Below the pieces are notes generated by a model. It did not search any database. It worked only from the letters and a program-made list of their open reading frames with translations, and had not been told where the DNA came from. From the IMG/VR virus record IMGVR_UViG_3300030646_000021, positions 1-42,802 of that record: a DNA stretch of 42,802 bases; one strand, 5' to 3'. Below are positions 9,369 through 39,160 of the stretch, in pieces. The position numbers and the translations under genes are program-made. This DNA comes from a virus. Positions within the stretch are counted from its first letter, which is position 1; every line of letters begins with the position of its first letter.

Positions 9369-9412
9369 GATGGTTCTCCAATGAACTTGCCGGGGATCGG
9401 CCCCGGCTCCGG

Positions 9413-10081: not shown

Positions 10082-10278
10082 TACGCGGCCTCCTCGAAAG
10101 GAACTCCGAAAGCCAGGTGCTCTGCGAACGCGGAGGTGGTAAACTCCGCGGCCCAAGAGGCCAGCCTGAAGTGGAAGAAATGCTCGATCACGCGGAAGGT
10201 GATCACGGAGACGCCGATGAAGATGACCTTGCGGGTCACGAATCGACGCCAGTGGATGCGCTTGCGGCAGGAGAACAT
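10081..10278 (-). CDS. Basic membrane-associated protein (65 aa)
   Basis: GGAGGG precedes the ATG at 10278. The N-terminus is Arg-rich (RKRIHWRRFVTRK), followed by a hydrophobic helix (VIFIGVSVITFRVIEHFFHF). Probably a small membrane protein. Function unknown. Confidence 0.6.
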   Translation of the reverse strand: MFSCRKRIHWRRFVTRKVIFIGVSVITFRVIEHFFHFRLASWAAEFTTSAFAEHLAFGVPFEEAA

Positions 10279-10298
10279 GGGGGCGTCCCTCCGCGAGT

Positions 10299-10316
10299 CT
10301 CGGGCTTTCGCCCGAG
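10299..10316 (-). promoter_or_regulatory. GNRA-capped hairpin in the intergenic region
   Basis: The minus-strand RNA reads CUCGGGC-GAAA-GCCCGAG, a perfect 7-bp stem with a GNRA tetraloop, in the short gap between the DUF932 gene and the 65-aa gene. No U-tract follows, so it is more likely an mRNA-stabilising or processing hairpin than a terminator. Confidence 0.55.
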
Positions 10317-10339
10317 TACTCGCCAGTTGGAGTTGCGTT

Positions 10340-15658: not shown

Positions 15659-15984
15659 GCTGCTCCTCTCATCTGCAAGGCCTTCCGAAGAAGCGCCTCG
15701 AAATCGCTATCGTCTACATGGTGGTGGTTCACCGCGACCTGCACGGCACGCTTTGAATCTGCCTTCGAGTAGCCCAGCCCGATCATCGCCAGGATCACAT
15801 CCGCCCGCTGCGACCGGCGGGGATAGTCCGGCGGGCGCGGTGGCGGTTCCAACTCATGCCTCGGCTCGATCTTGAGCCCCATCACCAGGTACCGCATCCG
15901 GCGCTTGAGGCTCTTGTTCTGCTGCATCGCAATGATGAGCAGGAAGAAGAAGACGAGGTTGCTTGCGATTAGCCAGGGGATCAT
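15655..15984 (-). CDS. Membrane-anchored protein with RuvA-C/UBA-like tail
   Basis: 109 residues. An N-terminal transmembrane helix (LIASNLVFFFLLIIAM) is followed by a basic and Pro-rich linker and a C-terminal three-helix segment (ADVILAMIGLGYSKADSKRAV) like the RuvA-C/UBA fold. The ATG at 15984 overlaps the ligase-HNH stop (ATGA). The role is unknown; a membrane-tethered protein- or DNA-binding module is possible. Confidence 0.65.
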   Translation of the reverse strand: MIPWLIASNLVFFFLLIIAMQQNKSLKRRMRYLVMGLKIEPRHELEPPPRPPDYPRRSQRADVILAMIGLGYSKADSKRAVQVAVNHHHVDDSDFEALLRKALQMRGAA

Positions 15985-17006
15985 TTCGCACGCTCGCATT
16001 TCCGGCACTTCCGCCAGCCGCGCGAATTCACCCGACCATACTCAGCGAACGAGTGTCCTTTGCTGCAATGGGTTTTCCGAGCGTTGTGATGCTCCGACCC
16101 CTTGCGGTAGTTAGTCAGACGGCCCTTAGTCACTGCGTCAACGACGTTATCTCGCTGGCTCCCCCTGAAGAGATGATCTGGGCGGCAGCACGGCGGGTTA
16201 TCGCAAGAATGGCAAACCTTCACACCTTCGGGAGCTCCGGCTTTCTTGAAGACGACCCCTTCCGCGTGCGCCTCGGTGAACCGCTGGAGGGCTGCCTCTT
16301 TGTTGGCGGTGCCAGTAAAGGTCCTGACCATGTGGAGGCCGACCGGCGTTGTGTCGCGGACGATGAATCGGGAGAGCGCCAGGCGGCGCTGGTAGCGCGG
16401 GAGGTTCTGAATCTCTATGCCGTCCATCATCAGGATGTCGAAGGCAACGTAGCTCCCTTTGACGAACTCGCCGTCGAGATGAACCTGCTGCCCAGCCAAC
16501 TCGGCCAACTCGCGGGTGGGAACCGGAATTATCTCGCCCTTGCGATTGAAGGCGTAGACCAATGTTCCATCCGCGAGGATAGAGATGCGGTGGCCGTCCA
16601 GCTTCTCCTCCAGCTCCCAGCCGTCATTGACGACATACTCGCCGGCTTGATCCGGTCCGATCGGAGCCAGCAGCTCAGGGAAGAAGGTGGGGGCGAAGCC
16701 AGGAACTGTCGGGTCGGGGATGAATGCCGCGCCGACCGGATGGCCTTGAACGCCTTCCAGCTCGTAGACGCCGCCGCAGCAGTCGCACTTTTTGCCGGTC
16801 TTCTCATCGACGAGCTTGTCGAAGATTTTCCGGGCAACTTCGTAGGTCGTAGTGGTGGGGGTTTTAGTTCCAGCCCTAAGCGGTGCGCCGATGGCCCCAT
16901 ATTGAAAGTCAACCGACCACAGCCCGTCATGCTCCTGAAGCTGAACGTTGTAGGATTTCTGGTGGCGATCATTCCGAAGTACGAGCGAACAACTCAAAGG
17001 CTCCAT
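15981..17006 (-). CDS. WGR-type DNA ligase fused to an HNH nuclease
   Basis: 341 residues. Residues 1-75 are a WGR-like domain (SVDFQYGAIG). Residues 125-258 carry ATP-dependent ligase motifs: I with the adenylated Lys (K135-LDGHR), III (HLDGE, 176-180) and IV (EGVVFK, 249-254). Directly afterwards, where motif V and the OB domain should follow, the sequence becomes an HNH nuclease (CHSCDNPPCCRPDHL, 265-279) ending in a zinc-finger-like tail (314-337). The reading frame is continuous. The ligase half is therefore truncated after motif IV and may be inactive. GGAGAGAG precedes the ATG at 17006; the promoter at 17052-17079 is just upstream. Confidence 0.85.
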   Translation of the reverse strand: MEPLSCSLVLRNDRHQKSYNVQLQEHDGLWSVDFQYGAIGAPLRAGTKTPTTTTYEVARKIFDKLVDEKTGKKCDCCGGVYELEGVQGHPVGAAFIPDPTVPGFAPTFFPELLAPIGPDQAGEYVVNDGWELEEKLDGHRISILADGTLVYAFNRKGEIIPVPTRELAELAGQQVHLDGEFVKGSYVAFDILMMDGIEIQNLPRYQRRLALSRFIVRDTTPVGLHMVRTFTGTANKEAALQRFTEAHAEGVVFKKAGAPEGVKVCHSCDNPPCCRPDHLFRGSQRDNVVDAVTKGRLTNYRKGSEHHNARKTHCSKGHSFAEYGRVNSRGWRKCRKCERAK

Positions 17007-21558: not shown

Positions 21559-22287
21559 CTAGAACGGGCAGCTATGCGTCGCCAGGCACGCGATATTCAC
21601 AGCGAGATTCCCATAATTCATAGCCTTGCGCCACCACGGTTGAGGCGCGGTCGCTCGGTCCATGTCCTTGCGGAGATCGGTGGCGATGCCCGTGACCTGC
21701 ACTCCAGTCAGCGCCAACTGCTCAGAGGAGTCCGCGCTCCCCTTTAGGAACCGGGCCACGTCCTTGGACGTCACGAGGTCGTCGAAGTCCTTCACAGACT
21801 TCGCCAGGGCGACGCTATTGGCGTTGACGCTGGTATCCACGTCGAGGAAGGTTTTATTCGCGCTCGCGAGGAGAGGGCCTTCCCCGGCAGTGAAAGTATT
21901 GATCGCCATGGTCGCCGCGTCGCCAGTCCCGGCGATGGAGGCCGTCACCCGGTTGAAGCCAGAGAGCGAAGTGTGAACGTCTGAGAAGAGGTCGGGGAGG
22001 GTCTTCTTGAGCATGAACTGCTCTTGCTTCACCAGGTCGCCAGCATCGGCCAAATCCTGCCCCGCGAGCGATAGCGTGCCGCAGTGGTTGGCCTTGTCCG
22101 CAGAGGTCTTCCCGCTGCCCGCGCAAGGCGCGATGAGCTTCGCCGCCACCGCATTGAATCCGGCGGCCGTCGGCTTGAGGTCGGGGATCTTGTGGCCGGT
22201 CGTGACGAGGAACCACACGACGGCTACGCCAACGACGGGGACGGTGCCAAGCGCGATGATCTGGAAGATGAACTTGAGCCGATTCAC
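21559..22287 (-). CDS. Membrane-anchored hypothetical protein (242 aa)
   Basis: One N-terminal transmembrane helix (IIALGTVPVVGVAVVWFLV), then a long soluble helical region (residues 25-215) that would be periplasmic or extracytoplasmic, with two Cys early and two late. Next to the cell-wall hydrolase, so a spanin-like or lysis-accessory role is possible but not shown. Confidence 0.65.
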   Translation of the reverse strand: MNRLKFIFQIIALGTVPVVGVAVVWFLVTTGHKIPDLKPTAAGFNAVAAKLIAPCAGSGKTSADKANHCGTLSLAGQDLADAGDLVKQEQFMLKKTLPDLFSDVHTSLSGFNRVTASIAGTGDAATMAINTFTAGEGPLLASANKTFLDVDTSVNANSVALAKSVKDFDDLVTSKDVARFLKGSADSSEQLALTGVQVTGIATDLRKDMDRATAPQPWWRKAMNYGNLAVNIACLATHSCPF

Positions 22288-22733
22288 TACAGCTCCATCA
22301 GAAAGATGTGGTGCCCAATCTGCACCGTCTCATGCACGACGGCCGGATTCCAGGTCTCGGGGAACTTCACTACTTGACCGGTCATAAGCGTGAACGTCGC
22401 GTTGCTCACGATGCCAGCGGGGTTCCAGTAGAGCGTTGCGCCCTCGGTCACATCCACCGTCTCGCCGTCGATGACCTGCCGCGCGATGGTCTGGGCCAGC
22501 GCGAAGCTCGGGTCAGTCGGGCTGGGCTGGAGGTGATACTCCGGATCTGAAGGGACGCTCATCGACGTGAACTGCCAGGCCCGGTAAACCTCATGCGAGA
22601 AGGTCGTGTCGTGCTTCACGGTCCGGTTTCGGATGACGCAAGCCACCGCCGTCATGCCCGCCGCACCCTCGCCGCGCGCTTCTTTCCAGAGGCAGAGGGC
22701 GGTGTCGGAGTAGTCGCTCGGGGTCGGGATCAA
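22287..22733 (-). CDS. SleB-type cell wall hydrolase (endolysin)
   Basis: 148 residues. ALCLWKEARGEGAAGMTAVA followed by CVIRNR is the signature of the Hydrolase_2/SleB family; E18 is the likely catalytic acid. No signal peptide, so it probably relies on a holin to reach peptidoglycan. The C-terminal HHIF block also fits the family. It starts in ATGA overlap with the small membrane protein upstream. Best candidate for the host-lysis enzyme. Confidence 0.88.
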   Translation of the reverse strand: MIPTPSDYSDTALCLWKEARGEGAAGMTAVACVIRNRTVKHDTTFSHEVYRAWQFTSMSVPSDPEYHLQPSPTDPSFALAQTIARQVIDGETVDVTEGATLYWNPAGIVSNATFTLMTGQVVKFPETWNPAVVHETVQIGHHIFLMEL

Positions 22734-23122
22734 TTACCGCCTCGCTTCTTCTGGACGAAATATCCAGCCACCGAGGTCGCCACCTGCAGGATCGTGAGAA
22801 GTATCGCCAGCCCGCGGATGTCGCCGTTGAACTCTGCGATAGCCAGGGCGTTCGCCCGGCTCGTCGACTCCAGCGCGTCCATCCTTTTGATGTCCTCGGT
22901 GTGGATGGTCTCGATGTCCTTCACGAGATTGTCGATGCGGGTATCTTCGACAGCGGACTTGATTTCGAGGCCATAGACCGCAGCCGAATTGGCCGAGCTT
23001 TGGGGACTCTGCGCGGCGGCAGGGGGATGGCGCCCATCGAAGATGACGAACAGGCAGACCACGATGAAGGCCATCTTGCACAGCAGCACCACGCGACCCG
23101 TCCGATTCACGAAATCCCCCAT
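22730..23122 (-). CDS. Two-TM protein, holin/spanin candidate (130 aa)
   Basis: An N-terminal hydrophobic helix ending in AAAQS (possible signal anchor or cleavage site), a central coiled coil (residues 50-95) and a C-terminal helix (AILLTILQVATSVAGYFV) with a basic tail. Overlaps the endolysin start. The layout would suit a lysis accessory protein. Confidence 0.65.
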   Translation of the reverse strand: MGDFVNRTGRVVLLCKMAFIVVCLFVIFDGRHPPAAAQSPQSSANSAAVYGLEIKSAVEDTRIDNLVKDIETIHTEDIKRMDALESTSRANALAIAEFNGDIRGLAILLTILQVATSVAGYFVQKKRGGN

Positions 23123-23140
23123 AGTTGCCTCACGCTGAAG

Positions 23141-23506
23141 TTACCCATCGCTCTTTGCAGAAGTCTCCGCTGAGGCCGGAGTCGACGACGCGTCGATGGG
23201 AGTCTTACTTTGCAGCTGGGCCGAAAGCTGATGCATTACATTCTGAGAGTTGGCGGAGACGCCAGTCAGCGTCCCGAGCATGAGGGTAAGGACCGCCAGG
23301 ATGCCAGCGCCGGCCGGGTGGGTTTTGTCGGTGATGTAGACGTACGTCATCGCCGCAGTAACCGACAGGAACCCCAAAGAGCAGACGGCGAAGGTCGCAA
23401 GGAATACGAACCGGGTCGTCGACGGGCCACCCTCGAAGGGCAGCTCCTTCAGTATCCCCCATACCGATAATGTCTTGACACGCGCGTCGAGCTCTTCGTC
23501 TGCCAT
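23141..23506 (-). CDS. Holin-like membrane protein (121 aa)
   Basis: Two transmembrane helices (FVFLATFAVCSLGFLSVTAA and GILAVLTLMLGTLTGVSA) with a short loop, and a polar C-terminal tail. Directly upstream of the lysis cassette, so holin is the best guess. Confidence 0.65.
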   Translation of the reverse strand: MADEELDARVKTLSVWGILKELPFEGGPSTTRFVFLATFAVCSLGFLSVTAAMTYVYITDKTHPAGAGILAVLTLMLGTLTGVSANSQNVMHQLSAQLQSKTPIDASSTPASAETSAKSDG

Positions 23507-23536: not shown

Positions 23537-26446
23537 TCAGAAGCTGACGTGCCCACCGGCATTCGCGCCGAAGTGAACGCCCTGCGGAGCGGGAGTGCCG
23601 AGGGTGATATTCCCTGTCCCGGTCGCCGCGAAGGTCAGCACCCCGGCGGTGTCCGAGGTGGCGCTAGAGGGCGCGCCAGTCCCCGCGACTGTGTAGACGG
23701 TGTTGGGCGTGAGATCGGAGACATACTGCGTCGTCGCCCCCGAGGCTGGGTAGGTCACCCCGGTAAAGGTAGCTGGCCACGCACGCATGAAGCAAACCAT
23801 CGACGCGCCAACCTTGCCGCAATCGAAGTTCTGGCCTCCGGTAGACTGCACCAGCGTCGTCGAGCTCTGCGTCAGGCTTGATGTTCCCCATTCCATCACA
23901 GATAGAAACTTGGAGTTGGTAGCTACCGACGACGGGTTCACTTCGAGCGACGTATACGGCTCCCAATCAGCAGCCTGATCTGAGCTTCCAGACGTCAATC
24001 CAGCATTGGTAATGGTCGCCCCGGACGGCAGTAGGCTGGTGAAATATGCCTTCTGCGAACTGGACCGAGTGAGCCAGCTTGCCACGCTTCCAGAGATGGT
24101 CGGGTTTCCCGTCGTCATCAGATAAAGCTGCTTCGTCCAAGTGTTCGTGGTCGAGTCGCCACGGTCGTAATAGACAACCTGATTCGATCCGCGCAGATAG
24201 ATCAGCGACCGGGACGCGGTGATGCCAGAAGATAAATAGCCGAAGCCTCCATAAGTCGATCCATTGTAGGCATTGGATTGATCGATGATTGCAGCCACAT
24301 AGGTTGGCAGCTCGCTGTGCAGCAGTGTGATAAGTCCTTGCTGATAGGAGTGCCAGAACTGGCCTCCGTACTGCGCGGCATACCCTTGCTCGCAACTATT
24401 CGCAACTGTGCAACTGGTTTGCGTTGGATTGTTCTGGAGGGCCACCAGGTTCTGCTGCGGAGCTGTCGTCATCTGATCGTTGTAGTCATTGAATTCAGCG
24501 CGGCCCTTGGTGATGTACTCGCCGTCAGAGTAAATATCGAACCGCCCATCGAACTCATGCTCATGGTCGATGGCCGTATTGGGCGCGTAGTAAGAAAACA
24601 GCGTTCCGCCCGATGTCCAGTTATTGCGCACCACGATGTGCTGGTTTCCAGCGTCGTACAGGTCGGTGGGCAGGGAAGGCCGTGGATCGGCTGGCAGACT
24701 GGCAAGCGGATCGGTAGCGGGTTGGGTGATAAACAAATCAGGAAGTACATCTTGTGCGTAGGTATTCGTTGTTTCGTTATTCCAGCCTGCGTAAAAGCAA
24801 GCCGAAGGGCATCCGTAGGATGTTCCAAGTGGGCCGCCAAAAGCGGTATTCAGTATTGTCCACAGCATTGCCGAATCGCCCTCAGTCCTCCCTATATAAG
24901 AGTTTCCCAACATTGTGGCCGATTGCGTGACAAAGTTGGATGGATATTTGTAGTAAGTAAGCTCGTCCCCCGTATTCAAGAAGTTAGTCGATCCCTGTAT
25001 AACGGCTCCGCCTGCCGTGGTGAGGATGGGGCCAGTCAAAGATGCAAGATCGGTGATGTAGCGCAAGTCCCAGTAACTCGACGAGGCAAGGCTCATCTGC
25101 GGCCCATAGGCAATCGGATCGAGATAGCCAGCCGTGTATGCGGCGTCGAGCGCCCACTTCAGCTTAGAAATTGATCCTCCATAGCTGTTGCCCTCACTTG
25201 GCTCTCCGCCACGTCCAAGACCAAAGCAAGGAGTTTTCGTTCCCAGCGGTGCCCATGTGCTGTCGCAACTTGGCACGGTCGAAAGGTTCGCGTAAGCGGT
25301 CTGGTATGCCTGCCACGTCACGTTCGGGTCTTCCATGTCGGCCCAGTCTTTGTACATCATGCCTCCCGTGAAATACGTCCAGTAGGCATGTAGGGAACCA
25401 GCCGTCCCATCGGGACAGACCTGATAACGCGTGGCTGAACAGGTGTTCGTCAGCGGGGGATCGTCTGTCGTGTTGTCATTGAATGTCAGGGCGTCGGCCA
25501 CCAGATAAAGCATCTTGCTCTGGGTGTAGTTGTTTCCCATCGCCCGCTGATTTGTATAGTCAAACTCGTTCCCCGTATCGAACTGCGAGGAACTGTTGTA
25601 GTTACCGATCACCGCAAGCGTTCCATTGCCGCTGTTGGTGACAGTAAACTTTGCAAAGGCCGCCAGAAATTCCCGCGCCTGGATCAAGTCTGTTGAGTTT
25701 AGATATCCCCCCGCCATCAGCCAATCTGGAGTGAGCGTAAATGCTTTCGCACTGTCCGACCAGTGGTTTCCTCCATAGGCGCTCGGGTTCGCGATGAACT
25801 GATCCATCATGTAAGTAAAAATGTCGCGTCCCGCGCAACCCCATTGGTAACTAGGATCAGAAGGATCAATCATCGACATAAAGGCAAAGAGATTGGCGTC
25901 CCCTTCTTTGTAGCTTTGCGACTGGTCCGAGGAGGGGCCGCTTCCACCCACGCAGGCCGATCCATTCCATGTGCTGAAAGTCCAAATGCCAGAGTCTGTC
26001 GTGTACAAGTTGACGGCCGCGGTACGCAGCGCCTGGTAAAGCGTGTTGCCACTCGTCGCCTTAGCTCGCAAACCGGGCAACATCGCCGCCGTTACCAGCA
26101 GCCGCGGGTGGCTCGTCGCCGGAGTTGGAGACCCCGTGAACGTTACGGTCGAGGTTGCCGTAACCGAGCCGACGTTGGTGGTAGCAGTCAGGGTGTCGGT
26201 CTCAGCAGTTGTGTCGTAGAGCGCGATGGTACAAGGCTCGTTCACTACGCAAGGATTGATGCCAACCAGCGTCCCGGTCCCGCTCGTGATCGACCAGGTG
26301 ACGGTCTTGTTGTTCACACCCTGCACGACGGCTGTGACGGTCTGATAAGTGCCGATGGGGGCGATGGCGACGGTGGGATACACCGAAAGCGTCTGCGCCC
26401 ATACATGGGCCGAGCACAGCAGTGCGAAGGTAAGTAGGCGTCTCAT
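23537..26446 (-). CDS. Secreted heparinase II/III-like lyase with Ig-like domain
   Basis: 969 residues. A signal peptide (RRLLTFALLCSAHVWA, then Gln) is followed by an Ig-like domain (about 20-105) and an (alpha/alpha)-type lyase start (HPRLLVTAAMLPGLRAKA). Near residues 615-640, DHEHEFDGRFDIYSDGEYIT matches the catalytic beta-sheet motif of heparinase II/III and alginate-lyase families. It likely cleaves an acidic polysaccharide (capsule or exopolymer). The start at 26446 overlaps the previous TAA (TAATG). It is the last of four secreted-type tail-region proteins. The substrate is unknown. Confidence 0.8.
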   Translation of the reverse strand: MRRLLTFALLCSAHVWAQTLSVYPTVAIAPIGTYQTVTAVVQGVNNKTVTWSITSGTGTLVGINPCVVNEPCTIALYDTTAETDTLTATTNVGSVTATSTVTFTGSPTPATSHPRLLVTAAMLPGLRAKATSGNTLYQALRTAAVNLYTTDSGIWTFSTWNGSACVGGSGPSSDQSQSYKEGDANLFAFMSMIDPSDPSYQWGCAGRDIFTYMMDQFIANPSAYGGNHWSDSAKAFTLTPDWLMAGGYLNSTDLIQAREFLAAFAKFTVTNSGNGTLAVIGNYNSSSQFDTGNEFDYTNQRAMGNNYTQSKMLYLVADALTFNDNTTDDPPLTNTCSATRYQVCPDGTAGSLHAYWTYFTGGMMYKDWADMEDPNVTWQAYQTAYANLSTVPSCDSTWAPLGTKTPCFGLGRGGEPSEGNSYGGSISKLKWALDAAYTAGYLDPIAYGPQMSLASSSYWDLRYITDLASLTGPILTTAGGAVIQGSTNFLNTGDELTYYKYPSNFVTQSATMLGNSYIGRTEGDSAMLWTILNTAFGGPLGTSYGCPSACFYAGWNNETTNTYAQDVLPDLFITQPATDPLASLPADPRPSLPTDLYDAGNQHIVVRNNWTSGGTLFSYYAPNTAIDHEHEFDGRFDIYSDGEYITKGRAEFNDYNDQMTTAPQQNLVALQNNPTQTSCTVANSCEQGYAAQYGGQFWHSYQQGLITLLHSELPTYVAAIIDQSNAYNGSTYGGFGYLSSGITASRSLIYLRGSNQVVYYDRGDSTTNTWTKQLYLMTTGNPTISGSVASWLTRSSSQKAYFTSLLPSGATITNAGLTSGSSDQAADWEPYTSLEVNPSSVATNSKFLSVMEWGTSSLTQSSTTLVQSTGGQNFDCGKVGASMVCFMRAWPATFTGVTYPASGATTQYVSDLTPNTVYTVAGTGAPSSATSDTAGVLTFAATGTGNITLGTPAPQGVHFGANAGGHVSF

Positions 26447-28749
26447 TAGAATGACCAGTGACAACCGGATGTAGAACCGAGTGCGTTAGGCACGTCTGTT
26501 ATTGCAAAATCTCCAGCGGTCGCCGTTGCTGGAATCACCAAGCCGGTGGTCGAGTGGTCCGTACCGTTGATCGGCTGCGTCGAGTTGAAATTCTTCAACG
26601 TGATCACTTGGCTGGTTTGATTGTTGATCGTGTAGACGGCCCCCGACTGACCGACGCATGAGGGAAGAGTCAAAGTTTCCCCGGCGGAAGCCTGCGTAAG
26701 TTCAATGTAGCCATCCGACGCGAGCATTTGATATGCGGTGGTGGTCACCGGAGCATTGGTGACAGTCATAGTTAGCCCAACGTTTTCACCGGAAAAAGCG
26801 GTGTATGTTTGTGCTCCCGAAGGCAAGGTGCTTTGACCGGTGAGATAATACAGCGGCGTGCCGCCCCCAAGTCCCGGACCCGTTGCAGTCACCCATACCA
26901 CAGGAAACTCACCGGCAACCGCATTCAGTGGTGCCGTGAATCCAACACCCGCAACAAAGGTCTGATTGCCGGATGTCGCAGTAGGTGTCACGGTGAATGA
27001 AGAACCCGGAACGATTGTAAATGTTGGTGCTGTTCCGGTCGCATACGCGAGAGTGATTGGAGTGGTTGTTGGCGCTGCATTGAATCCCAAGGTGATTGAA
27101 CTTAGTGGCCCTGAGATAAGTGGAGAGGGAACCACAATCGCCCAGTTCGCTGGCATATTATTGTTGTACGAACCTGGTATTGACCCGGCGGTGCCAACAG
27201 CACCCGCCACCGTTTGGACAATGGCGTTCGGATTGCTCTTGTTATACCCGAAGTAATATTCCATCGAGTTCCACGCATCGGCCTGCATGAGCAAATAGCC
27301 AGCATTTTGCAGATGGACGAAATCAGACTGATAATAAGTCCCGTTGGTGTTACACGATGAACATCCGAGATAGGGGTCGGCTGCGAAGTCGAGGATTCCT
27401 GCTGCTCCCCACGCCTTCCAGTTTTGCCGAATAAGGTTGTCCAGAGCGATTTGATTTGCGTTCCATGTCAAACCGTTGGGCGGAGCCGGTGAGCTGCCTC
27501 GACTTATCATCGTACCCACGAAAACCTTGCACCCGGCTTGCGTGAGTAGCTGAATTTGATTTGCTAAATACCCCGCTACATTCGCCGCGGTGGCTGTCGA
27601 ATAATTAGAAAAATTATTTGTTCCATCGAAGACTGTTGCTATCTGTGGGCCTTGATTGGAGGAACAGTTAGGGGCGGCGCTACCGGCGTTTGTGGACATG
27701 ATGTAGTCAGCCGTTTTCCCCGCATTGCCGAGGTTTGTTACAAGCCCAAATGTAGGAACAGGCGCAGGTGGTTGATTCACCCAACAATCACCCGGAACAG
27801 TACCGTAAAGGCAGTAAGTGAGCGAGTCCCCATAGGCATACCAATTAGGCCCTATGGAGTTCCATTGGACGCCTATACTCCCTGCTCCTCTCGCCTGAAT
27901 ATCAGAACTTGAGGCTGCATATTCCTGAGCAACTTGAGCCGCCGTCAGTTCTGTAGACCATCCAATAAATTCGTACTCAGTGACAATTGACGCTGAATTT
28001 AGGCCGCACGATTGGCATGCTCCTAATATCCAGTTCCCCGACAGTTGAGTTCCCGCGCTATACCCGCGATTGGTGTACGGCGTCACTTCCACTCCGTCAA
28101 AATAAAAGTGATCGTAGTCACTGCCGCTGGTTCCAAAAGTAACGATGACAACGTGGTTGCCCGAAGACAGGTTCACGGGGGAAGTGGTCGTATCAGCACC
28201 GTACTTCCACAGTGCCAGGCCGGGCGTAGTAGACCAATTGTTGCCTCCAACCGAGCTGATCCACGCACTCAAGAATATCCAGGGGCCGTTGTTTGTGGCT
28301 CCGCTAGTGCTGGGTGTCAAAACTGCCGCTTCGGCTCCACTACCGGACGAACCCGTTATAGGGATGTTGATTACAAACTCGAAAGTCCGCAGATTGTTGA
28401 CGGAGGTTGGAAGAGGCGCACATCTAGCGTTGTCGGGAAAGAACAACCCAACTAGGGTGGACTGTGGGGCATTCGCACCTGTGCATAGAGTGGCGTTATT
28501 TCCGTTACCGCTAGAATCCGTTATGGTCGTGCCACTGATGAATTGAGGAAGCATGTTCAGAAAAATCTCGGCGCCTGAGATATGCTGCGATGTGTTCGCG
28601 ATCAAGCACGTTGATTCTGACAGGCAAGGGTTGCTGTTGATCGTCGTAGTGGTAGATACGTGCGCCGTCTGCCCATTGATCGTTGATTGACCGAGTGCGG
28701 GTAACGCGAATACCAGAGGCAGCGCGAGAATAAAATTACGGAGTGACAT
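26446..28749 (-). CDS. Secreted SGNH hydrolase / lectin-like tail protein
   Basis: 767 residues. Signal peptide (LRNFILALPLVFALPALG, then Gln). Residues about 55-280 look like a concanavalin/LamG-type carbohydrate-binding domain. An SGNH hydrolase follows: YGDSLT near 306 (catalytic Ser) and SDFVHLQNAGY near 478 (Asp-His pair). The C-terminal part contains Ig-like and fibre-like segments ending in a Trp-rich tail. Likely a polysaccharide de-esterase. GGAG precedes the ATG at 28749, which is 14 nt inside the preceding gene. Confidence 0.8.
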   Translation of the reverse strand: MSLRNFILALPLVFALPALGQSTINGQTAHVSTTTTINSNPCLSESTCLIANTSQHISGAEIFLNMLPQFISGTTITDSSGNGNNATLCTGANAPQSTLVGLFFPDNARCAPLPTSVNNLRTFEFVINIPITGSSGSGAEAAVLTPSTSGATNNGPWIFLSAWISSVGGNNWSTTPGLALWKYGADTTTSPVNLSSGNHVVIVTFGTSGSDYDHFYFDGVEVTPYTNRGYSAGTQLSGNWILGACQSCGLNSASIVTEYEFIGWSTELTAAQVAQEYAASSSDIQARGAGSIGVQWNSIGPNWYAYGDSLTYCLYGTVPGDCWVNQPPAPVPTFGLVTNLGNAGKTADYIMSTNAGSAAPNCSSNQGPQIATVFDGTNNFSNYSTATAANVAGYLANQIQLLTQAGCKVFVGTMISRGSSPAPPNGLTWNANQIALDNLIRQNWKAWGAAGILDFAADPYLGCSSCNTNGTYYQSDFVHLQNAGYLLMQADAWNSMEYYFGYNKSNPNAIVQTVAGAVGTAGSIPGSYNNNMPANWAIVVPSPLISGPLSSITLGFNAAPTTTPITLAYATGTAPTFTIVPGSSFTVTPTATSGNQTFVAGVGFTAPLNAVAGEFPVVWVTATGPGLGGGTPLYYLTGQSTLPSGAQTYTAFSGENVGLTMTVTNAPVTTTAYQMLASDGYIELTQASAGETLTLPSCVGQSGAVYTINNQTSQVITLKNFNSTQPINGTDHSTTGLVIPATATAGDFAITDVPNALGSTSGCHWSF

Positions 28750-30847
28750 TGATAGCTCCTAGACTTTCTGATTCGAGAGTGGTTCCGTTGAATGAATCAA
28801 ATGCCTGCAGTGCACATGTATTAGCGGGCATCGTGCCGATCCCGGTCATTCCCCCATTCACACCTGAGGGCCACGTCCAAGAGTATGGACCCCCACTGGT
28901 AGGCTGACATACACGGAAGACTATGTGTTGACTTAAGGCAATGCCTGTGATCGTGGGTGTGGTGTTGCCGCTCAAGGTGATGGTCTGAAGACAATTGGTG
29001 GCTGTGATGACGGGAGTTGTCCCGCTTAGAGTTGTGACGGTTGGGCATCCTCCGCCGCCAGTCCCGTTCGCGGCGAGCGTGATGGTGCCGTCGGCAGCGA
29101 TCGTGATGTTCGCATTCGTATAAGACCCCGGCGTCACCGCCGTCGAGGCGATGTTCGCATGGGGCAAGAGGCCGGTCACGTCGGCGCTCGCGAGATTGAC
29201 AGCCGAGAACGTCATCTGCGCAACCGCACTCGAGAGCGCGCTGACATGAGCGATTCCGGCAGCGGAGACGGTGAGGGGGAACTGGATGCCGTAGGCCGTC
29301 ATAGACGAGCCGCTGGGTCCGAGGAGGTTGACGTTCCCGGCGAAGAGGGTTGGGAGCGAGGTTCCAGGCGCAAGGCCGATCGGAGCGGCGACGCCCGCGG
29401 TTCCGGTAGTTGCTACCGAACTCGGCGCGATGGCCTGCCCTGCGATGGCCGCAACGACGTTCGTCGCATTGACTGGGGTCGTGACCGAGATCGCGCCCGT
29501 GGAGTTGGTGATCGTGGTTCCGTCTGGCTTCACACCGCCCAGCGTGCTGGAGGTCGCGGCAGGAAGGGTATAGGTAGAGGCGTTGGCAAGGACGAAAGCG
29601 TCCGTGGCGAGCTTGGTCGAGTTGTCGCCGGTGGTCTGCGTGACGGCGGAGATGCCGTTCGGGAGCGCCGGGGTGCCGCTCAAATTGGCCGCTGTGCCGC
29701 TGGTGTTCGCTGCGATCGACGCCGGAATATCCCCAGAAACGAGAGCGCGGACGCCAACCGCACCAGAAGATCCGTTGGGAGTGGCAACCACCTCGTTCGC
29801 CGGACCCGAATAGCTGGATCCAGCCCCTCCGCCTTTGGGCCAGCACCAGACATTGGTGTATGCGGTTGCGCCATCTAGGTAGCAGGTGATCAGCAGCTCG
29901 GCCCCCGAAGTTGTGGGCATGGCGGGAGGCGAGCCGACAGGAAGGCCGTTCGACAGCCAATAGACGCCAGGAGCTGTGAAAGACCCGCTAAAGGGCGTGG
30001 TACTCGACTGGATGAGCTTGAACGTGATCTCGGCGGTGCCGGTGCCAACGGGCGGCTCAATGATGGTCAGAGCGCACGAGTCGCCATCCGTCAACGTGAG
30101 GCTCTGATTATTCCCGTTCAAAGGGTCGATCGTCGCGGAGGTAGTGCAGGTCCCCTCGCTGACCTCGCCGGCCGCGAAGAGAGGGCCAGTGAACTGGTCA
30201 AAGGTCGGATGGAATATGAGGCCAGGCCCCGTGAAGTCGCCGACGCTGCACTTCGGGTCGGTGTTATAGCCAATCTCAGCCGCAAACTGGGCATATCCCA
30301 ACGACGCGAAACAGATCGGTATCCCACCCCCTACTTGGTACTGGTAGAGAGACAGATAGGGCACACCACCGGAGCTGTTGCCGAGTTCAATCCCGAGCGT
30401 TCCCGGAAGGACGCCGAAGCCGGAGGTCTGGACGTAATATCCTCCGAGGTCTTGGGCTGACACATAGCCAGTAGGATCGACTTCGATGCCGCCCGGCTGA
30501 ATATAGCCAATCTGACCCGTCGAGTTCACGACGGTGGCTTCCCGCCCCGGAGAGTCGACAAGATTGATATTGAACGGCCCAGTCAAGAGATTGTGGGTGT
30601 CCGTGATGGCGAACGTGCCGACGTAGGGCCCATCGATGCCAGCGACGGTGACGCCATCCGGAAGGTAAATCTGGCAGTTCGTCAGAGGACTGAGGGTGCA
30701 GTCACCCGCCGCAGAGAAATCGACGACCGCCATGCCATTTGTGGAATCGGTGGTCGATGGCACATAGAGATGGCCGCCCACCTTGGACTGCGCCGAGGCG
30801 ATGATCGAGGACAGAAGGATAACGGCCAGGGAGAGGTTTTTTAGCAT
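28736..30847 (-). CDS. Secreted-type tail fibre protein (703 aa)
   Basis: Signal peptide-like start (NLSLAVILLSSIIASA, then Gln). The middle and C-terminal halves are typical of phage fibres: GDIPASIAANTSGTAANLSG, a TLGGVKPDGTTI repeat-type segment, and beta-rich Gly/Thr-rich stretches. About ten Cys are scattered through the chain. Overlaps the preceding gene by 7 nt. Probably receptor or surface binding; the reason for the signal peptide is unclear. Confidence 0.75.
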   Translation of the reverse strand: MLKNLSLAVILLSSIIASAQSKVGGHLYVPSTTDSTNGMAVVDFSAAGDCTLSPLTNCQIYLPDGVTVAGIDGPYVGTFAITDTHNLLTGPFNINLVDSPGREATVVNSTGQIGYIQPGGIEVDPTGYVSAQDLGGYYVQTSGFGVLPGTLGIELGNSSGGVPYLSLYQYQVGGGIPICFASLGYAQFAAEIGYNTDPKCSVGDFTGPGLIFHPTFDQFTGPLFAAGEVSEGTCTTSATIDPLNGNNQSLTLTDGDSCALTIIEPPVGTGTAEITFKLIQSSTTPFSGSFTAPGVYWLSNGLPVGSPPAMPTTSGAELLITCYLDGATAYTNVWCWPKGGGAGSSYSGPANEVVATPNGSSGAVGVRALVSGDIPASIAANTSGTAANLSGTPALPNGISAVTQTTGDNSTKLATDAFVLANASTYTLPAATSSTLGGVKPDGTTITNSTGAISVTTPVNATNVVAAIAGQAIAPSSVATTGTAGVAAPIGLAPGTSLPTLFAGNVNLLGPSGSSMTAYGIQFPLTVSAAGIAHVSALSSAVAQMTFSAVNLASADVTGLLPHANIASTAVTPGSYTNANITIAADGTITLAANGTGGGGCPTVTTLSGTTPVITATNCLQTITLSGNTTPTITGIALSQHIVFRVCQPTSGGPYSWTWPSGVNGGMTGIGTMPANTCALQAFDSFNGTTLESESLGAINVTP

Positions 30848-31881
30848 GAGGAGGCTCCGAGCGTGAACGGGACACTAAGGCTGTTGATGCTCATGTACAT
30901 CCAGACGGTCACGTTCGAACCGTACGCGTTGGTCATCGTCACCGAGACCGGCGCATGCATCGGGAAGCCGAAGCCGCCCGAGCTGAAGGAGCAGGAATTA
31001 CTCAGCGCGACCACGTAGATGTACTGGTCTGAAGGGTTGAGAGGTCCCCAGCTCGTTTGAGCCCCGAGACCCGCGCTTGGAAGTGTGCCGGTGGCTCCGA
31101 CCAGAACGGCGCTGGTTCCAGAAGCGGTCAGCCCGGTCGCTCCGGCCGTTCCGACTCCAGCAAACTCGCGGACGGCGAAGGATCGTCCCTGTGTGGCGCC
31201 GGCGGTCTGGGCTGGGGCCGTCGATGTCGTGGTGGCGCTCCAGGTGGTGTTTGCCGAGTAGACGTAAGGGAAGACCGCCGAAGTGAAAGGCGTCGTCAGC
31301 GTCACATTGTGCGTGCCGTCGGAGACGGTACCGCTGGCCGGTGTGCCGTTGCTGTAGCTCAGGGTGCAGGTGTTCGGATTGGTCGAGTTGTTGCCAGCCT
31401 CGAAGGGGCCGCCCGCCGCGGTGCAGGACATGCTCACCGCGAAGGGCGATCCGATAGCCGAAATGCATCCGTCGGTGATGGTGGCAACCTGACCAGAGAG
31501 GCTGAGGGTGACCGTTGGCCCCGTGCAACCGGACCCGCTGCCCGCAGACCCGAGAGCCAGCCAACTCGACGAGCTTCCGGGGGTGATGCCGGTGTTGTTC
31601 GCGATCGTGCTGAGGTAGGTGCCCCCAGAGTAGGTGACGATGTTGTCGAGCTGGTAGTTGATCCCGGACGACCACGCGCCCTGATAGGGATTCAGCAGCG
31701 CCCATAGGGTGTTGTCGATCTTGGTCATCGAGCCGTTGTAGCAGACGCCCCAGGCCGTGACGCCATTCGGCGGAAGACAGAAGCTGAAGTGCGGGGTCTG
31801 GGGGAACCCACCTTGGGCGCGGGCAGACGCCGCTCCGAAGAAGAAGGCGGCCATCGCCAAGACCAGTTTGAGCTTGCGCAT
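30841..31881 (-). CDS. Secreted-type fibre protein with carbohydrate-binding motif
   Basis: 346 residues. Signal peptide (KLVLAMAAFFFGAASARA, then Gln). A module with W-x-x-G-x-x-Y-x-x-x-x-x-V-x-Y-x-G-x-x-Y (residues 69-107) resembles the carbohydrate-binding segments found in phage tail fibres and chitinases. Many Cys. TAATG coupling with the 37-aa gene upstream, with GGGAGGA as ribosome site. Confidence 0.75.
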   Translation of the reverse strand: MRKLKLVLAMAAFFFGAASARAQGGFPQTPHFSFCLPPNGVTAWGVCYNGSMTKIDNTLWALLNPYQGAWSSGINYQLDNIVTYSGGTYLSTIANNTGITPGSSSSWLALGSAGSGSGCTGPTVTLSLSGQVATITDGCISAIGSPFAVSMSCTAAGGPFEAGNNSTNPNTCTLSYSNGTPASGTVSDGTHNVTLTTPFTSAVFPYVYSANTTWSATTTSTAPAQTAGATQGRSFAVREFAGVGTAGATGLTASGTSAVLVGATGTLPSAGLGAQTSWGPLNPSDQYIYVVALSNSCSFSSGGFGFPMHAPVSVTMTNAYGSNVTVWMYMSINSLSVPFTLGASSC

Positions 31882-31994
31882 TACTTCCTCCCGAATAACC
31901 TCATGATGTGCTTCCGCAGGAAGAACCCGGCGGTTGCGAGAGCAGCGCCCAGAGACTGCAAAGCCAGAAAGCCAGAACCCGGATCGACATACAT
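31881..31994 (-). CDS. YVDPGSG microprotein (37 aa)
   Basis: Starts Met-Tyr-Val-Asp-Pro-Gly-Ser-Gly, a motif known from small bacterial membrane proteins, then a hydrophobic helix (LALQSLGAALATAGFFL) and a basic end. Linked by one-base TAATG overlaps on both sides. Possibly a small membrane protein made together with the secreted fibres. Function unknown. Confidence 0.65.
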   Translation of the reverse strand: MYVDPGSGFLALQSLGAALATAGFFLRKHIMRLFGRK

Positions 31995-32623
31995 TAGTAG
32001 GTGGCCCTCCAGTGAATGGGGATCGCGTTCAAGCTGCCCGCGCCGCTGCCTCCGATATTGGTGGCAGCACGAATCACCGCCGTGGCGCCGGTCGTGCTAG
32101 TGCCGAGGTGGTAAACCGTCACCGCATCCTCGTTCGTCCCATCCGGATAGGTGCCCAGGCTGAGCGTGAGGACAGGGTTTCCGGGGAAAGTAGCAGGGAA
32201 CGTGATGGCCTGCGTCGCCAGCGTTCCGCCGCCCACCGCGCCGGAGGTCACGGTGCCGTAGGCCTCATACAGAAAGCCGCCGGCTCCATCCGGGCTCTTG
32301 ATGAAGGTTCCGTTCCCGTTTCGCGTGGTGACTATCGGCACGGCGGCCTTCGCAGCAGCAGCAACCGCAGCAGCGAACAGGGCGGTGAGGGCCGAGACAT
32401 TGCCGTCATCGAGGACATCGACGTTCCCGTTTTCGACCGAAATCCAAGGAGCCAGCATCGCCATAGCCATCGTCGCTTGGCGCCAGCACTTATTCGCGCT
32501 GGAGGAAGCCGCAACGCCAGCCACGAACCCGGTCGGGAGGTAGCTTGAGGCCAAAAAGGTCGCTTGGCTGTCTACGTTCGCTCCGCCACCGCCCGCCACT
32601 TGCTGATAATCAATCGTTGCCAC
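31994..32623 (-). CDS. gp53-like tail fibre protein (209 aa)
   Basis: No signal peptide. The C-terminal half has the beta pattern of phage fibre gp53-like domains (TLATQAITFPATFPGNPVLT). The N-terminus is Ala/Gly-rich with a helical segment. Located between the DUF2612 baseplate protein and the secreted fibre group. Likely the basal fibre or adaptor. Confidence 0.7.
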   Translation of the reverse strand: MATIDYQQVAGGGGANVDSQATFLASSYLPTGFVAGVAASSSANKCWRQATMAMAMLAPWISVENGNVDVLDDGNVSALTALFAAAVAAAAKAAVPIVTTRNGNGTFIKSPDGAGGFLYEAYGTVTSGAVGGGTLATQAITFPATFPGNPVLTLSLGTYPDGTNEDAVTVYHLGTSTTGATAVIRAATNIGGSGAGSLNAIPIHWRATY

Positions 32624-32639: not shown

Positions 32640-33302
32640 CTATACCGCTGGTGGTGCCCACTTGCCAGAATCCCAACCGGCTACGACCGGTGTCTCCAGA
32701 TCAAAGCCGAAGATCGGGGGGCCGGTGATGAAGTAATAGCCCGTGATGCCGACGCCCGCGGACTTCAGCGAGAGCTGCCCGCCGAGCAAGAGCGCCGTTT
32801 GAACTGCCGTCAGGGGAGGACCAATGACGTAAATCGTAATCGTCATGTTCTGGTTGTCCTGAATAAGCAGAGTGTACCCGAGGGGTGCAAATGCGAACTC
32901 CAGCACAGCCGCCGTGCTGCCCGCCTTCCCGGTCCAGTAATTGACTGCGATTCGCGCCCTCAGCACCAGGCGATAGTCGTCGTCATCGAGCAGGTACATG
33001 ACGTCGCCGGTTTCATCGGGGCCCAGCCAGTTGCCTTGATCCCAGCCGAGGCCGACGGTGTCGAACGAGAAGAAGACGCCCGTCAGAGGTATCGCCAACT
33101 CGCGGGAAATCCCAATCCAGAGCCCCACCGCATCGAGCTGCGAGCCGACCGCCAGGTCGAGGTCGTACTTGAGGAACATCTCGGCGTAGAGGTTCTGCAG
33201 GTCCACATACGGCTGGCAAGCCTCCGCTACCATCTGCCGGAATAGCGGCTGGTTTGCATGCTCAGAGGTGATGCGCGCGAGGTATTGGTCGACCGTCACC
33301 AT
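32640..33302 (-). CDS. DUF2612 baseplate-periphery protein
   Basis: 220 residues. LDAVGLWIGISRELAIPLTG and the FDTVGLGWDQGNWLG block are hallmarks of the DUF2612 family, which takes the place of gpI/Mu gp48 between gpJ and the fibres. TAATG overlap with the baseplate J gene. Confidence 0.85.
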   Translation of the reverse strand: MVTVDQYLARITSEHANQPLFRQMVAEACQPYVDLQNLYAEMFLKYDLDLAVGSQLDAVGLWIGISRELAIPLTGVFFSFDTVGLGWDQGNWLGPDETGDVMYLLDDDDYRLVLRARIAVNYWTGKAGSTAAVLEFAFAPLGYTLLIQDNQNMTITIYVIGPPLTAVQTALLLGGQLSLKSAGVGITGYYFITGPPIFGFDLETPVVAGWDSGKWAPPAV

Positions 33303-34489
33303 TAGGTCACGACCGAAACGTTCGCGAGAAGCCCGACGGCGGCCGCGTTGAATGCGATCGAGATGTCCGCCGAGGAACCGGGCGACGGGGCAGTCCCGAT
33401 ATACAGGGAGGTGATGACGAAGGTCTGCTGCTGAGGCGTGCCGGGGAGACCGGCCTCCGCGACGAGCCAGGCGTCATAGACGTCCTCGCCGATCGCAAGC
33501 TCGTTGATGAAGTTGACGATGGCAGCCTGAATAAGCGGCTCCGTCGAACCCACCCAGCCGGGCAGGACAGTAACGTTGACGATGGCATAAATCTCGACCT
33601 GCGCCAGCTCGAAGAAGTTGATGGTGATGGGCAGCCCAGACGGGTCAGCAATCGTCTCTGAAGTCGTGCCGTAGGTTCCACACCCTTGGTCCTTCTCGAG
33701 AAGAATAGCGGTGGCGATGGCCGTGGCGTCGCCACCCTGCACGACGGCGCAGATCGAATGGCTGGGGATGCCGTTGCTGTCCGTGGTGGCGCTGTCGTTC
33801 TCGTACACCAAGGAGCGAACCACGCCGGGGATGTCAGCCACCGCGCCCATGATCGCGCCGATGGAGGTCTGCGATGGGATGGCCGTCGAGATAGTCTGGC
33901 GCTGGCGGACGGCCCCATCGGTTTCGGTGGAGGATCCGATATCGGAAGCAGCCGGATTCGTGATCGTGTCCCACCCGAGCTGCGGGGTGTAGATGGTAGT
34001 GATCGTGTTCGGCGGGGCGACAATGGCTCCGACGGCGGCGCATGTCACGGTCACGGGTATGGTTCCGGACGACGGAATCAGCACGGACGCGGGCAGGTTC
34101 CAAAGATTCGGCGGGGTCGCAGTGTCCTGCGCTTGGCCGTTGACGATGGTGAAGCCAGGCGCGCCCACAACATTGCAGATGGCGGTGCTGTTGGTTCCAG
34201 CTTCGCGGGCCATGCCGTTTATCTTGATGGCGGTGTCGAGCTGGACGCCCACGGCCGTCTGAGGGCTGTAGGCATTGAAGGCGGCGACGGCGGCGACGTT
34301 CGAATCGTAGATCGCTTGAGCTTCGATCGCCAGGAGCTGATAGTCCTGCGAGCCGGTGGCGAGATACACGTCATCACCCCAAATGCTCTGATAGGTCGCG
34401 ATCTTCGAGTTGATGATGTCCTGAAGAGCGGGGATCGTGATGCCGGTGGGTGTGATGGTGGGACCGAGGGTCGCCAGTGGGTAGGTCAT
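33302..34489 (-). CDS. Baseplate wedge protein J-like (gp47 family)
   Basis: 395 residues. The N-terminus (ITIPALQDIINSKIATYQSI), the LLAIEAQAIYDSNVAAV helix and the long beta-rich C-terminal half fit the baseplate J family of Mu/P2-type tails. ATGA overlap with the gp25-like gene. Part of the baseplate wedge. Confidence 0.9.
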   Translation of the reverse strand: MTYPLATLGPTITPTGITIPALQDIINSKIATYQSIWGDDVYLATGSQDYQLLAIEAQAIYDSNVAAVAAFNAYSPQTAVGVQLDTAIKINGMAREAGTNSTAICNVVGAPGFTIVNGQAQDTATPPNLWNLPASVLIPSSGTIPVTVTCAAVGAIVAPPNTITTIYTPQLGWDTITNPAASDIGSSTETDGAVRQRQTISTAIPSQTSIGAIMGAVADIPGVVRSLVYENDSATTDSNGIPSHSICAVVQGGDATAIATAILLEKDQGCGTYGTTSETIADPSGLPITINFFELAQVEIYAIVNVTVLPGWVGSTEPLIQAAIVNFINELAIGEDVYDAWLVAEAGLPGTPQQQTFVITSLYIGTAPSPGSSADISIAFNAAAVGLLANVSVVT

Positions 34490-36756: not shown

Positions 36757-37505
36757 GGGGTCACCTCGGACTCTGGGAAGGGGAACCGTTCGGCGGCTGA
36801 CTTCGTGAGGTCGTTCTGGAATGACGGGACGCTGGGCGGGGACGCCGGGGACGCCTGCACGGTGCCCACCTGCGTCGTGCCGAGGCCGGATTGCGGGTCC
36901 GCCACGTTCGCGGGATTGACCGAGGTGAGCTGGATCGTGGTCGTCGACACCAGATTGACATTCAGGCAGACGATCCGGACGATGAGCGAGTTCTCGGTGT
37001 TCGCGTCGGTCGTGGTGGCAATCGACTCGATGAGCATGTTCTGGTAGACCCGCTTGCCGGTGTAGATGGCGAAGGGGACGTGCGACGCTTTGAGGTCGAG
37101 GAGCTGCTGGTAGACCGCTTGGATGAAGTGCGGGTTCGCGAAGCTGCTTGGCGTCGTGTCGGTGACCTGCGCGCCCCCGCCGCTCGTGGTCGCATCCGCG
37201 TCCGGCTGGGAGAGATTTGCTGCCAAGAGGCTAATCGTCGCGGTGTTGAATTTCCCTACGTTCTGCGGGCTGCCAGAACTCCACCCATAGGTGAGGGTGA
37301 CCTCGTTCGGCTCGTCGATGATGTTATCCGAGATTGTGGATCCGGACTCCACTGGCATACGGGTAATGGAAGACCGGTCTACGTGCGCCTCCTCGATGAC
37401 ACAATCGGCCGTCAGCGAGCCAAGAGCGCGCCGGGGGTCGAGAGACACCTTCTGGGCCGGAGGCGGGGTGCTGAAGATGCTTTGCGGTGTGGTCGTTAGG
37501 CTCAT
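36753..37505 (-). CDS. Dit-like N-terminal baseplate protein
   Basis: 250 residues. The ADCVIEEAHVDRSSITRMPV region followed by SGSTISDNIIDEP and EVTLTYGWS corresponds to the Dit-like phage tail N-terminal domain, connecting tube end to baseplate. The C-terminus is Pro/Ser-rich. TAATG coupling with the tape measure gene. Confidence 0.8.
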   Translation of the reverse strand: MSLTTTPQSIFSTPPPAQKVSLDPRRALGSLTADCVIEEAHVDRSSITRMPVESGSTISDNIIDEPNEVTLTYGWSSGSPQNVGKFNTATISLLAANLSQPDADATTSGGGAQVTDTTPSSFANPHFIQAVYQQLLDLKASHVPFAIYTGKRVYQNMLIESIATTTDANTENSLIVRIVCLNVNLVSTTTIQLTSVNPANVADPQSGLGTTQVGTVQASPASPPSVPSFQNDLTKSAAERFPFPESEVTP

Positions 37506-39160
37506 TATCCGGGTGCCCCTGCCGCGTTCCGCGCGAGGTCAGCGTTGACGTGCTTCTGAGTACGCATGACGGAGCGCCCAGTTGCTTCGGGGTCCGAGCC
37601 GCCGGTGACGTGGATGTCGGTCTTCTGGTTGATCGAGACGCCGCGCGCCATCTTTTCATCGCCCAGGCGACGGTTCAGGAGCGTGGTGCTGATGGCGTCC
37701 GAGCCGCCGGGGTGGAATCCCCCCTTGCCATCGTGGTATCCACCGTATAGCTCGAACGCTCGGGCAGCTCCGTCCAAGTCCCCAGCACGAAGCTTCCGTA
37801 GCAATATGTGGGCACCGGCCAGGTTGCCCGAGTTGAACTGGTAATCCGTGAGGGCATCGCGCCATCCCTGAGAGAGATTCAGACCCTTCGTGAGCTTGGA
37901 AACTACACCACCCGCCGCAGCCAGGTCGCTCTGGAACAATGCGTTTGCCTGCTCCGTCGTCAGGCTGCCGAAATGCTCCCCCGGCTTGAGCTTGTGGCCG
38001 TAGCCAATCGAAGCAGCGCCGCCCTCTAGAGAGCCGTACAACCGATGACGAAGCCCTTCCTTACTCTTCAGCCAGGAGACGAAACCCATGGCGGCCGTTC
38101 CTTCAGCTTGCCAGCCAGCCTTGCTCGTAGCCGCATGGAACACGCTCGCGACGCTGTGGGCCTCCCCGAACTTCTGCATCTTGTCCAGCGCGCCCGACTT
38201 CTTCAGCACCCAGGCGATGCCAAGGGCCGCCAGTACGCCCACGACGATGGGGACGACGAAGGGAATGACCGCCGCGCCGCCAGCGCCGCCCTCCGCCAGC
38301 TCGCCAGCGGCCGCTCCGCCGCGCAGTCCGATCGAGGTGCCGATCTTTCGCAGTCCCCAGCCCGTGACCTTCTTCGCCGCCCACCCGCCGCCCAACAGTC
38401 CAGCCAGGCCACCGAAGGCAGTGAGGTTCGGATGAGTCGTCATCACCCCCGCCACCACCGTCATCCCGCGCACCAGCTTGTCGACCAGAGGAAGGAACTT
38501 CGAGCCGATGATCTCCTTCAGAATGTCGACGTCATCTTCGAGGGTGTTGAGGTTGCGCTCGAACTCCACCGCCCGCTTGGCGTCGTCGTCCGGGTTCAGC
38601 CCGGCTTTCCGCATCCGGGCCTCGTGGGCCTTCTGCGCTTTGTCGTACTCGGGGAGGTTGTTGAGGACTTGGTTGGTGGTGTCCGAATCGAGGCCGAACT
38701 GCCCGGCTATCTGGAGGGCCATGTACCGCGGCATCTTGGCGATGCGGTGATAAAGGGCGCTCTGGGTGCGGGACGTATCCTGCCCCGGCTTGATGCCCAG
38801 ACCGCCCAAGAGACCGTTCAGCCCGGGATTCGACCGGATTGCCCGCGCCATGTTCTGAAGGCCAGCCGCAGCCGCATCCCCGCTCACGCCGACCGCCCGC
38901 GCGGCGAACTCCACCGTCTGCAGGTTCCGGACGCTGGTGTTCATTTGCTGGCTGGCGTAGGCCATCTTAGAGAAGTTGTCAGCCATGCCGACGACGTACT
39001 TATCGACGGCGATGGAGACCAGCGCCACGCCCTCAGCGAAGCCGGCCAGCACCTTCTCGGTCTTCGCGATCGCCGTTTCCACGCGACGGAGCTGATTGTC
39101 GTCGACGTTGAAGCCGAGCTTGATCAGGTACTCTCGCAGAACGTTGGAGTTACTTGCCAT
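37505..39160 (-). CDS. Tail tape measure protein with lysozyme domain
   Basis: 551 residues. The N-terminal 250 are helical as in tape measures; a hydrophobic stretch (residues about 295-325) has membrane-like helices. Residues about 362-500 form a T4-type (GH24-like) lysozyme: the catalytic Glu in KSKEGLRHRLYG and the SIGYGHKLKPGE motif. The enzyme would open peptidoglycan as the tape measure is ejected. Short for a tape measure, predicting a short tail. Confidence 0.88.
   Translation of the reverse strand: MASNSNVLREYLIKLGFNVDDNQLRRVETAIAKTEKVLAGFAEGVALVSIAVDKYVVGMADNFSKMAYASQQMNTSVRNLQTVEFAARAVGVSGDAAAAGLQNMARAIRSNPGLNGLLGGLGIKPGQDTSRTQSALYHRIAKMPRYMALQIAGQFGLDSDTTNQVLNNLPEYDKAQKAHEARMRKAGLNPDDDAKRAVEFERNLNTLEDDVDILKEIIGSKFLPLVDKLVRGMTVVAGVMTTHPNLTAFGGLAGLLGGGWAAKKVTGWGLRKIGTSIGLRGGAAAGELAEGGAGGAAVIPFVVPIVVGVLAALGIAWVLKKSGALDKMQKFGEAHSVASVFHAATSKAGWQAEGTAAMGFVSWLKSKEGLRHRLYGSLEGGAASIGYGHKLKPGEHFGSLTTEQANALFQSDLAAAGGVVSKLTKGLNLSQGWRDALTDYQFNSGNLAGAHILLRKLRAGDLDGAARAFELYGGYHDGKGGFHPGGSDAISTTLLNRRLGDEKMARGVSINQKTDIHVTGGSDPEATGRSVMRTQKHVNADLARNAAGAPG

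Follow-up and report, generated by a model that had tools for sequence, protein, structure and literature searches.

Why should a tailed phage provide four consecutive proteins of its tail region with Sec-like signal peptides, when tailed-phage tails are thought to be built inside the cell and the classical tail fibres are cytoplasmic products? This question is raised by a 42.8 kb IMG/VR virus record, which is referred to here as the window. Its tail operon is located on the minus strand and encodes, in this order, a sheath-like DUF3383 protein, the tape measure, the baseplate hub and J proteins, a DUF2612 protein, a gp53-like fibre and the four proteins in question, P1 to P4, the ORFs of which were found on the minus strand at positions 23537-31881, where the first-pass annotation had placed them. 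P4 is followed by a lysis region (22287-23506, minus strand) encoding a holin-like protein, a small membrane or exported protein and a cell-wall hydrolase. P1 to P4 thus lie within the tail operon next to the baseplate genes, as is typical of tail fibres, and this arrangement is syntenic with that of the Terriglobia prophage L129. An assembly artefact was ruled out by the presence of P2, P3 and baseplate J with 100% identity in a second IMG/VR contig. Elsewhere in the window, the tape measure (37505-39160) has a C-terminal part that resembles a phage lysozyme in sequence (EGLRHRLYGSLEGGAASIGYGHKL), and one ORF (15981-17006) oddly combines WGR, ATP-dependent DNA/RNA ligase and HNH motifs. The small protein encoded between the holin-like gene and the cell-wall hydrolase (22730-23122) has a hydrophobic N-terminus with AAAQ and is possibly an exported, spanin-like lysis protein.

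All four signals consist of a basic n-region, an uncharged hydrophobic core, small residues at positions -3 and -1 and a glutamine at +1, as determined with a heuristic scorer that is not SignalP, and neither a lipobox nor a twin-arginine motif was seen by eye in P1 to P4. P1 (346 aa; 30841-31881, minus strand, as for all following features of P1 to P4) combines a signal peptide of 22 residues with an ARA/Q cleavage site (31816-31881; N-terminus MRKLKLVLAMAAFFFGAASARA, then QGG) with a canonical phage tail-fibre N-terminal motif and a CBM5/12-like module. P2 (703 aa; 28736-30847) has a signal peptide of 19 residues with an ASA/Q site (30791-30847; MLKNLSLAVILLSSIIASA, then QSK), which is followed by an N-domain shared with the phage locus L181 and a fibre-like C-domain shared with the phage L003. 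In P3 (767 aa; 26446-28749), a signal peptide of 20 residues with an ALG/Q site (28690-28749; MSLRNFILALPLVFALPALG, then QST) precedes an SGNH-like hydrolase domain and a C-domain, and in P4 (969 aa from its ATG; 23537-26446), a signal peptide of 17 residues with a VWA/Q site (26396-26446; MRRLLTFALLCSAHVWA, then QTL) precedes an Ig-like domain and a heparinase-II-like lyase. The possibility that these signals stem from wrongly assigned start codons was ruled out by the ribosome-binding sites upstream of the ATG codons of P1 (GGGAGG), P2 (GGAG) and P3 (AGGAG), and by the overlap of the P4 ATG with the stop codon of P3. The true start of P4 is the ATG at 26446, which replaces the listed TTG at 26464. 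When the heuristic was applied to 49 genes of the window, none of the other tail or baseplate genes scored above the level of P1 to P4 at its own start. These include the gp53-like fibre (31994-32623, minus strand), which as the upstream neighbour of P1 serves as an internal control, and the DUF2612 and baseplate J proteins (32640-34489, minus strand). The level of P1 to P4 was reached outside the tail region by a transmembrane protein (21559-22287) and by a few cases that were weak or used alternative starts. The scores and the start sites therefore bear out the first-pass annotation, which had proposed Sec-like signals on four consecutive tail-region proteins and their absence from the gp53-like fibre and the baseplate proteins.

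Chance was likewise rejected as the source of such signals. Ten phages infecting other hosts contributed 18 tail proteins, and none of these was called signal-bearing, although several share modules with a signal-bearing fibre of the Acidobacteriota prophage L077, and the positive control, lambda Lom, was called by the same scoring. Likewise, 40 IMG/VR contigs (some of them near-duplicates) were retrieved with the shaft motif of gp337 and gp341 from the Tunturiibacter jumbo myovirus Tunturi_5, which has been isolated, and none of the 39 in which the shaft-motif ORF was found showed a signal on it. When the contigs of this same IMG/VR control set were examined with a related scorer that has no bonus for glutamine and a stricter threshold, 3 of 353 ORFs were called. 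Baseplate J loci of Myxococcota, which were also used as a control, revealed no signal-bearing fibre cassettes.

Export of these proteins finds independent support in their cysteine residues. The cysteine content of the signal-bearing proteins was 1.63%, compared with 0.45% in control fibres and, in structural proteins lacking a signal, 0.50% in the Tunturi phages and 0.71% in the window (Mann-Whitney P of 3e-10). The first-pass annotation had remarked that many cysteines occur in pairs. The mature parts of P1 to P4 contain 8, 12, 14 and 14 cysteines, all even numbers. Even mature counts were found in 28 of 31 signal-bearing proteins (binomial P of 2e-6), but in just 20 of these 31 when whole precursors were counted, and where the signal itself contains an odd number of cysteines, as in 10 proteins, its removal made the count even in 9. 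The six L180 and L181 proteins of at least 200 aa that were found afterwards all have even mature counts as well, which brings the total to 34 of 37 (nominal P of about 6e-8, some of the proteins being related). Among proteins with at least two cysteines but no signal, the count was even in 24 of 40. Cysteine enrichment together with even mature counts is what is predicted for paired disulfides in cleaved proteins, and the mature parts of P1 to P4 fit an oxidising compartment. Matches to the DsbA family were present in each of the six Acidobacteriota genomes searched, and three of these, among them the genome that holds L129, also had VKOR. Because the signals recur, the proteins are rich in cysteine and parity is a property of the mature parts only, we consider it very likely that P1 to P4 are exported and disulfide-bonded.

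The recurrence of the signals became evident from comparisons with other phages. The sole match of P3 among 50,697 phage records was gp342 of Tunturi_5, and in this phage gp337 to gp342 are six signal-bearing proteins in a row, three of which are annotated as tail fibres. Altogether, similar cassettes were found in three of the four Tunturiibacter phages examined, the others being Tunturi_4 (gp113 and gp114) and Tunturi_2 (gp12, 13, 14, 16 and 17). The fourth, Tunturi_3, has no such signals, and signals are also absent from an orthologous phage (L131), so the trait is not universal. In L131, a related myophage, the protein with the motif (12607-13008) begins right at the tail-fibre motif and thus provides a natural contrast. 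An unrelated IMG/VR phage, L003, was reached via the P2 C-domain (50%) and contains terminase and portal genes among six signal-bearing proteins. The prophage L129/L130 is syntenic with the window and has four signal-bearing proteins in the corresponding place: in L129, J (45% identical), DUF2612 and a gp53-like fibre precede four such proteins, including a 1256-aa homolog of P1. The host genome of L129 belongs to the same class as G001, an Acidobacteriaceae MAG, and the window phage is likely a tailed phage of Acidobacteriota of the class Terriglobia. Further cassettes were detected in L077, L128, L180 and L181, and a 325-aa protein of L181 shares the N-terminal region of P2, including several cysteines, right after its signal. 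L077 also encodes two collagen-like fibres (8665-10514) upstream of its signal-bearing fibres. A virus with a signal-bearing pectate-lyase-type tailspike (L212, 7064-9189), which has 16 cysteines, adjoins a signal-less tail fibre and runs off the contig, indicates that the trait may reach beyond the phages described here.

No match was obtained for P1 and P4 in the phage collection, for the C-domain profile in genome contigs, or for DUF2612 in 396 Acidobacteriota genomes, although this last result depends on sampling, since the DUF2612 protein of L129 scored 113.7 bits. In a search for baseplate J in Acidobacteriota, most long-frame matches looked, by frame length, like contractile injection systems, and none of the J-bearing Acidobacteriota loci that were read, apart from L077, contained a signal-bearing fibre cassette.

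That at least P1 is a fibre is suggested by its motif (TPHFSFCLPPNGVTAWGVCYNGSMTKIDNTL; 31708-31797), which starts a few residues past the cleavage site and aligns (alignment A5) with Tunturi_5 gp337 and gp341, Tunturi_2 gp13 and the signal-less Tunturi_4 gp112. The latter protein starts at the canonical motif (TPNYGLTKPDVGTDDWGPQVNTNFDVID), and from residue 2 onward it aligns by blastp with gp337 from residue 25 onward, past the 22-residue signal of gp337. The same fusion is found in P1, gp13, gp341 and the L129 protein. A signal thus precedes an otherwise ordinary tail-fibre N-terminus, which suggests that the fibres must still reach the virion. Among 299 Terriglobia genomes, the A5 motif profile gave one full-length match (G625), the others mainly covering its repeat-like C-terminal part. 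P1 also matched phrog_5073 (E of 1e-5), while P2 scored 24.5 bits against Phage_head_fibr (cut-off 24.6) and ends in a tail-fibre-like domain (28739-29035) that is about 50% identical to the C-terminal end of a 737-aa signal-bearing protein of L003. P3 and P4 matched no known fibre family, and the canonical N-terminal motif was not seen in P2 to P4. The signal-bearing L077 fibre has modules in common with tail fibres of lambda, phage P1, Rhizobium and Pseudomonas, of which those examined lack signals. In several phages the large fibre candidates almost all bear signals, which likewise suggests that these fibres have to reach the virion. This holds for Tunturi_2, in which no large candidate without a signal was visible, so that infectious virions plausibly need signal-bearing fibres.

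The enzyme assignments of the first-pass annotation hold, with P3 being SGNH-like and P4 heparinase-II-like at the profile level. The SGNH domain of P3 (27295-27837) has visible GDSL and DxxH blocks and scored 29.6 bits against Lipase_GDSL_2, below the cut-off of 32.9, whereas its homolog gp342 scored 81.5 bits. P4 alone matched no Pfam or NCBIfam model, but the profile of its family (A8) matched heparinase II (PDB 3e7j/2fut) with an E-value of 2.2e-7; the heparinase-II-like region, with approximate bounds of 24034-24649, contains a conserved histidine (His628). Single-sequence AlphaFold models of P3 and P4 were unusable (pLDDT of about 34). The nearest relatives of P4 (52-55%) are signal-bearing host proteins encoded within what, judged from the gene sequences, is a chromosomal exopolysaccharide cluster. 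P4 is therefore best read as a predicted exopolysaccharide lyase of host type that was captured by the phage and, resembling a secreted host enzyme, it need not be virion-bound. In one Terriglobia exopolysaccharide gene cluster (L147, 10750-19671), two P4-like proteins are located in tandem.

Taken together, these data lead us to propose that P1 to P4 are made late in infection from the tail operon and passed through SecYEG, that signal peptidase I removes 17 to 22 residues, and that the mature proteins form their cysteine pairs as they fold in the oxidising environment of the periplasm. This first part of the scheme is strongly supported by the sequences, and we hold Sec export, cleavage and periplasmic oxidation to be highly probable. 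The fibre-like P1 to P3 might then remain in the periplasm, fully formed and stabilised by disulfides, until the lysis proteins open the cell, upon which they would dock on fibreless virions, P1 via the canonical motif bared by cleavage, while P4 would either join the fibres or act free in stripping exopolysaccharide. Docking at lysis has about as much chance of being right as of being wrong, and the same even balance applies to our best explanation as a whole, an exported cassette of fibres and depolymerases with fibres docking at lysis. The joining of fibres after lysis is plausible because fibreless T4 particles, and P22 heads with tailspikes, are classical cases of in vitro complementation. 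P2 and P3, however, have no recognised attachment motif. That Acidobacteriota tailed phages build heads and tails in the cytoplasm and disulfide-bonded receptor-binding fibres in the periplasm, to be joined only at lysis, is a proposition to which we give slightly less than an even chance.

The first-pass annotation had proposed that the proteins are secreted or displayed so as to alter surface polysaccharide. Its export part is upheld by the recurrent signals and by cysteine enrichment and parity, and the polysaccharide part now describes one of two possible fates. As enzymes and adhesins that are secreted or surface-bound rather than virion parts, the four proteins could modify the polysaccharide of the cell, prevent superinfection or help progeny to escape from exopolysaccharide. 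The host relatives of P4, the SGNH domains of P3 and gp342 and the annotation of Tunturi_2 gp14 as a pectin lyase all agree with this, as does the precedent of lambda Lom, an exported protein encoded among tail genes. Yet it leaves unexplained why, in P1 and its relatives, a canonical tail-fibre N-terminus has been kept right behind the signal, and it would leave Tunturi_2 with infectious virions devoid of receptor-binding fibres. We regard this account of the cassette as possible but rather unlikely, with free action on polysaccharide being given about a third of the probability. Docking on virions at lysis is the reading that we prefer.

Two further explanations are much less probable. The lyase, SGNH and carbohydrate-binding domains, and a location between tail and lysis genes where accessory genes are frequent, could point to lysogenic conversion or auxiliary metabolism, with the cassette degrading environmental glycans for the host; but its genes belong to the late tail operon, in which they are coupled and overlap one another, and plaque-forming Tunturi isolates possess similar cassettes, which makes this improbable. 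It is at least as improbable that the hydrophobic N-termini are remnants or have some other function, and that folding takes place in the cytoplasm and is followed by ordinary assembly. The signal of P4 could have been inherited from a host gene, but signals recur on different proteins of unrelated phages, and if there were no cleavage and oxidation, it would be difficult to account for cysteine enrichment with parity in the mature parts only.

Tail fibres set the host range of phages and are regarded as products of the cytoplasm, whereas here fibre-like proteins appear to be sent through Sec, a trait that spans unrelated podo-, sipho- and myovirus-like isolates and prophages of one abundant soil phylum, the Acidobacteriota. 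If the fibres dock on virions, tailed-phage assembly gains a periplasmic branch with disulfide-stabilised fibres; if the proteins stay outside, they amount to a set of secreted weapons against host glycans that recurs from phage to phage. The label 'tail fiber protein' in standard annotation has hidden these export signals. No precedent for signal peptides on tail fibres was found in the open-access literature, and the main text of the paper describing the Tunturi phages mentions neither signal peptides nor mass spectrometry (PMC11924767).

Compared with known systems, the signal-bearing proteins resemble canonical tail fibres and tailspikes, such as the lambda side fibre, phage P1 S and the T4 and T7 types, in their place within the tail operon, in the N-terminal motif of P1 and its relatives, and in shaft and C-terminal modules, but the canonical proteins examined are poor in cysteine and have no signal peptide (0/18 tail proteins, 0/39 contigs). 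PblA and PblB of Streptococcus phage SM1 are likewise tail proteins of a phage and come to lie on the surface of the bacterium, but they are reported to lack signal peptides and to be released by the phage lysis proteins. Lambda Lom and similar accessory proteins are also exported products encoded between tail-fibre genes, but Lom is an outer-membrane protein and not fibre-like. P4 resembles heparinase II and related polysaccharide lyases at the level of its family profile. The closest parallels are found in Tunturi_2, Tunturi_4 and Tunturi_5, which carry the same kind of signal-bearing, cysteine-rich fibre cassette, with gp342 as the P3 homolog, in genomes that are, as far as tested, otherwise unrelated to the window phage, and as these phages can be cultured, they make the fate of the exported fibres testable.
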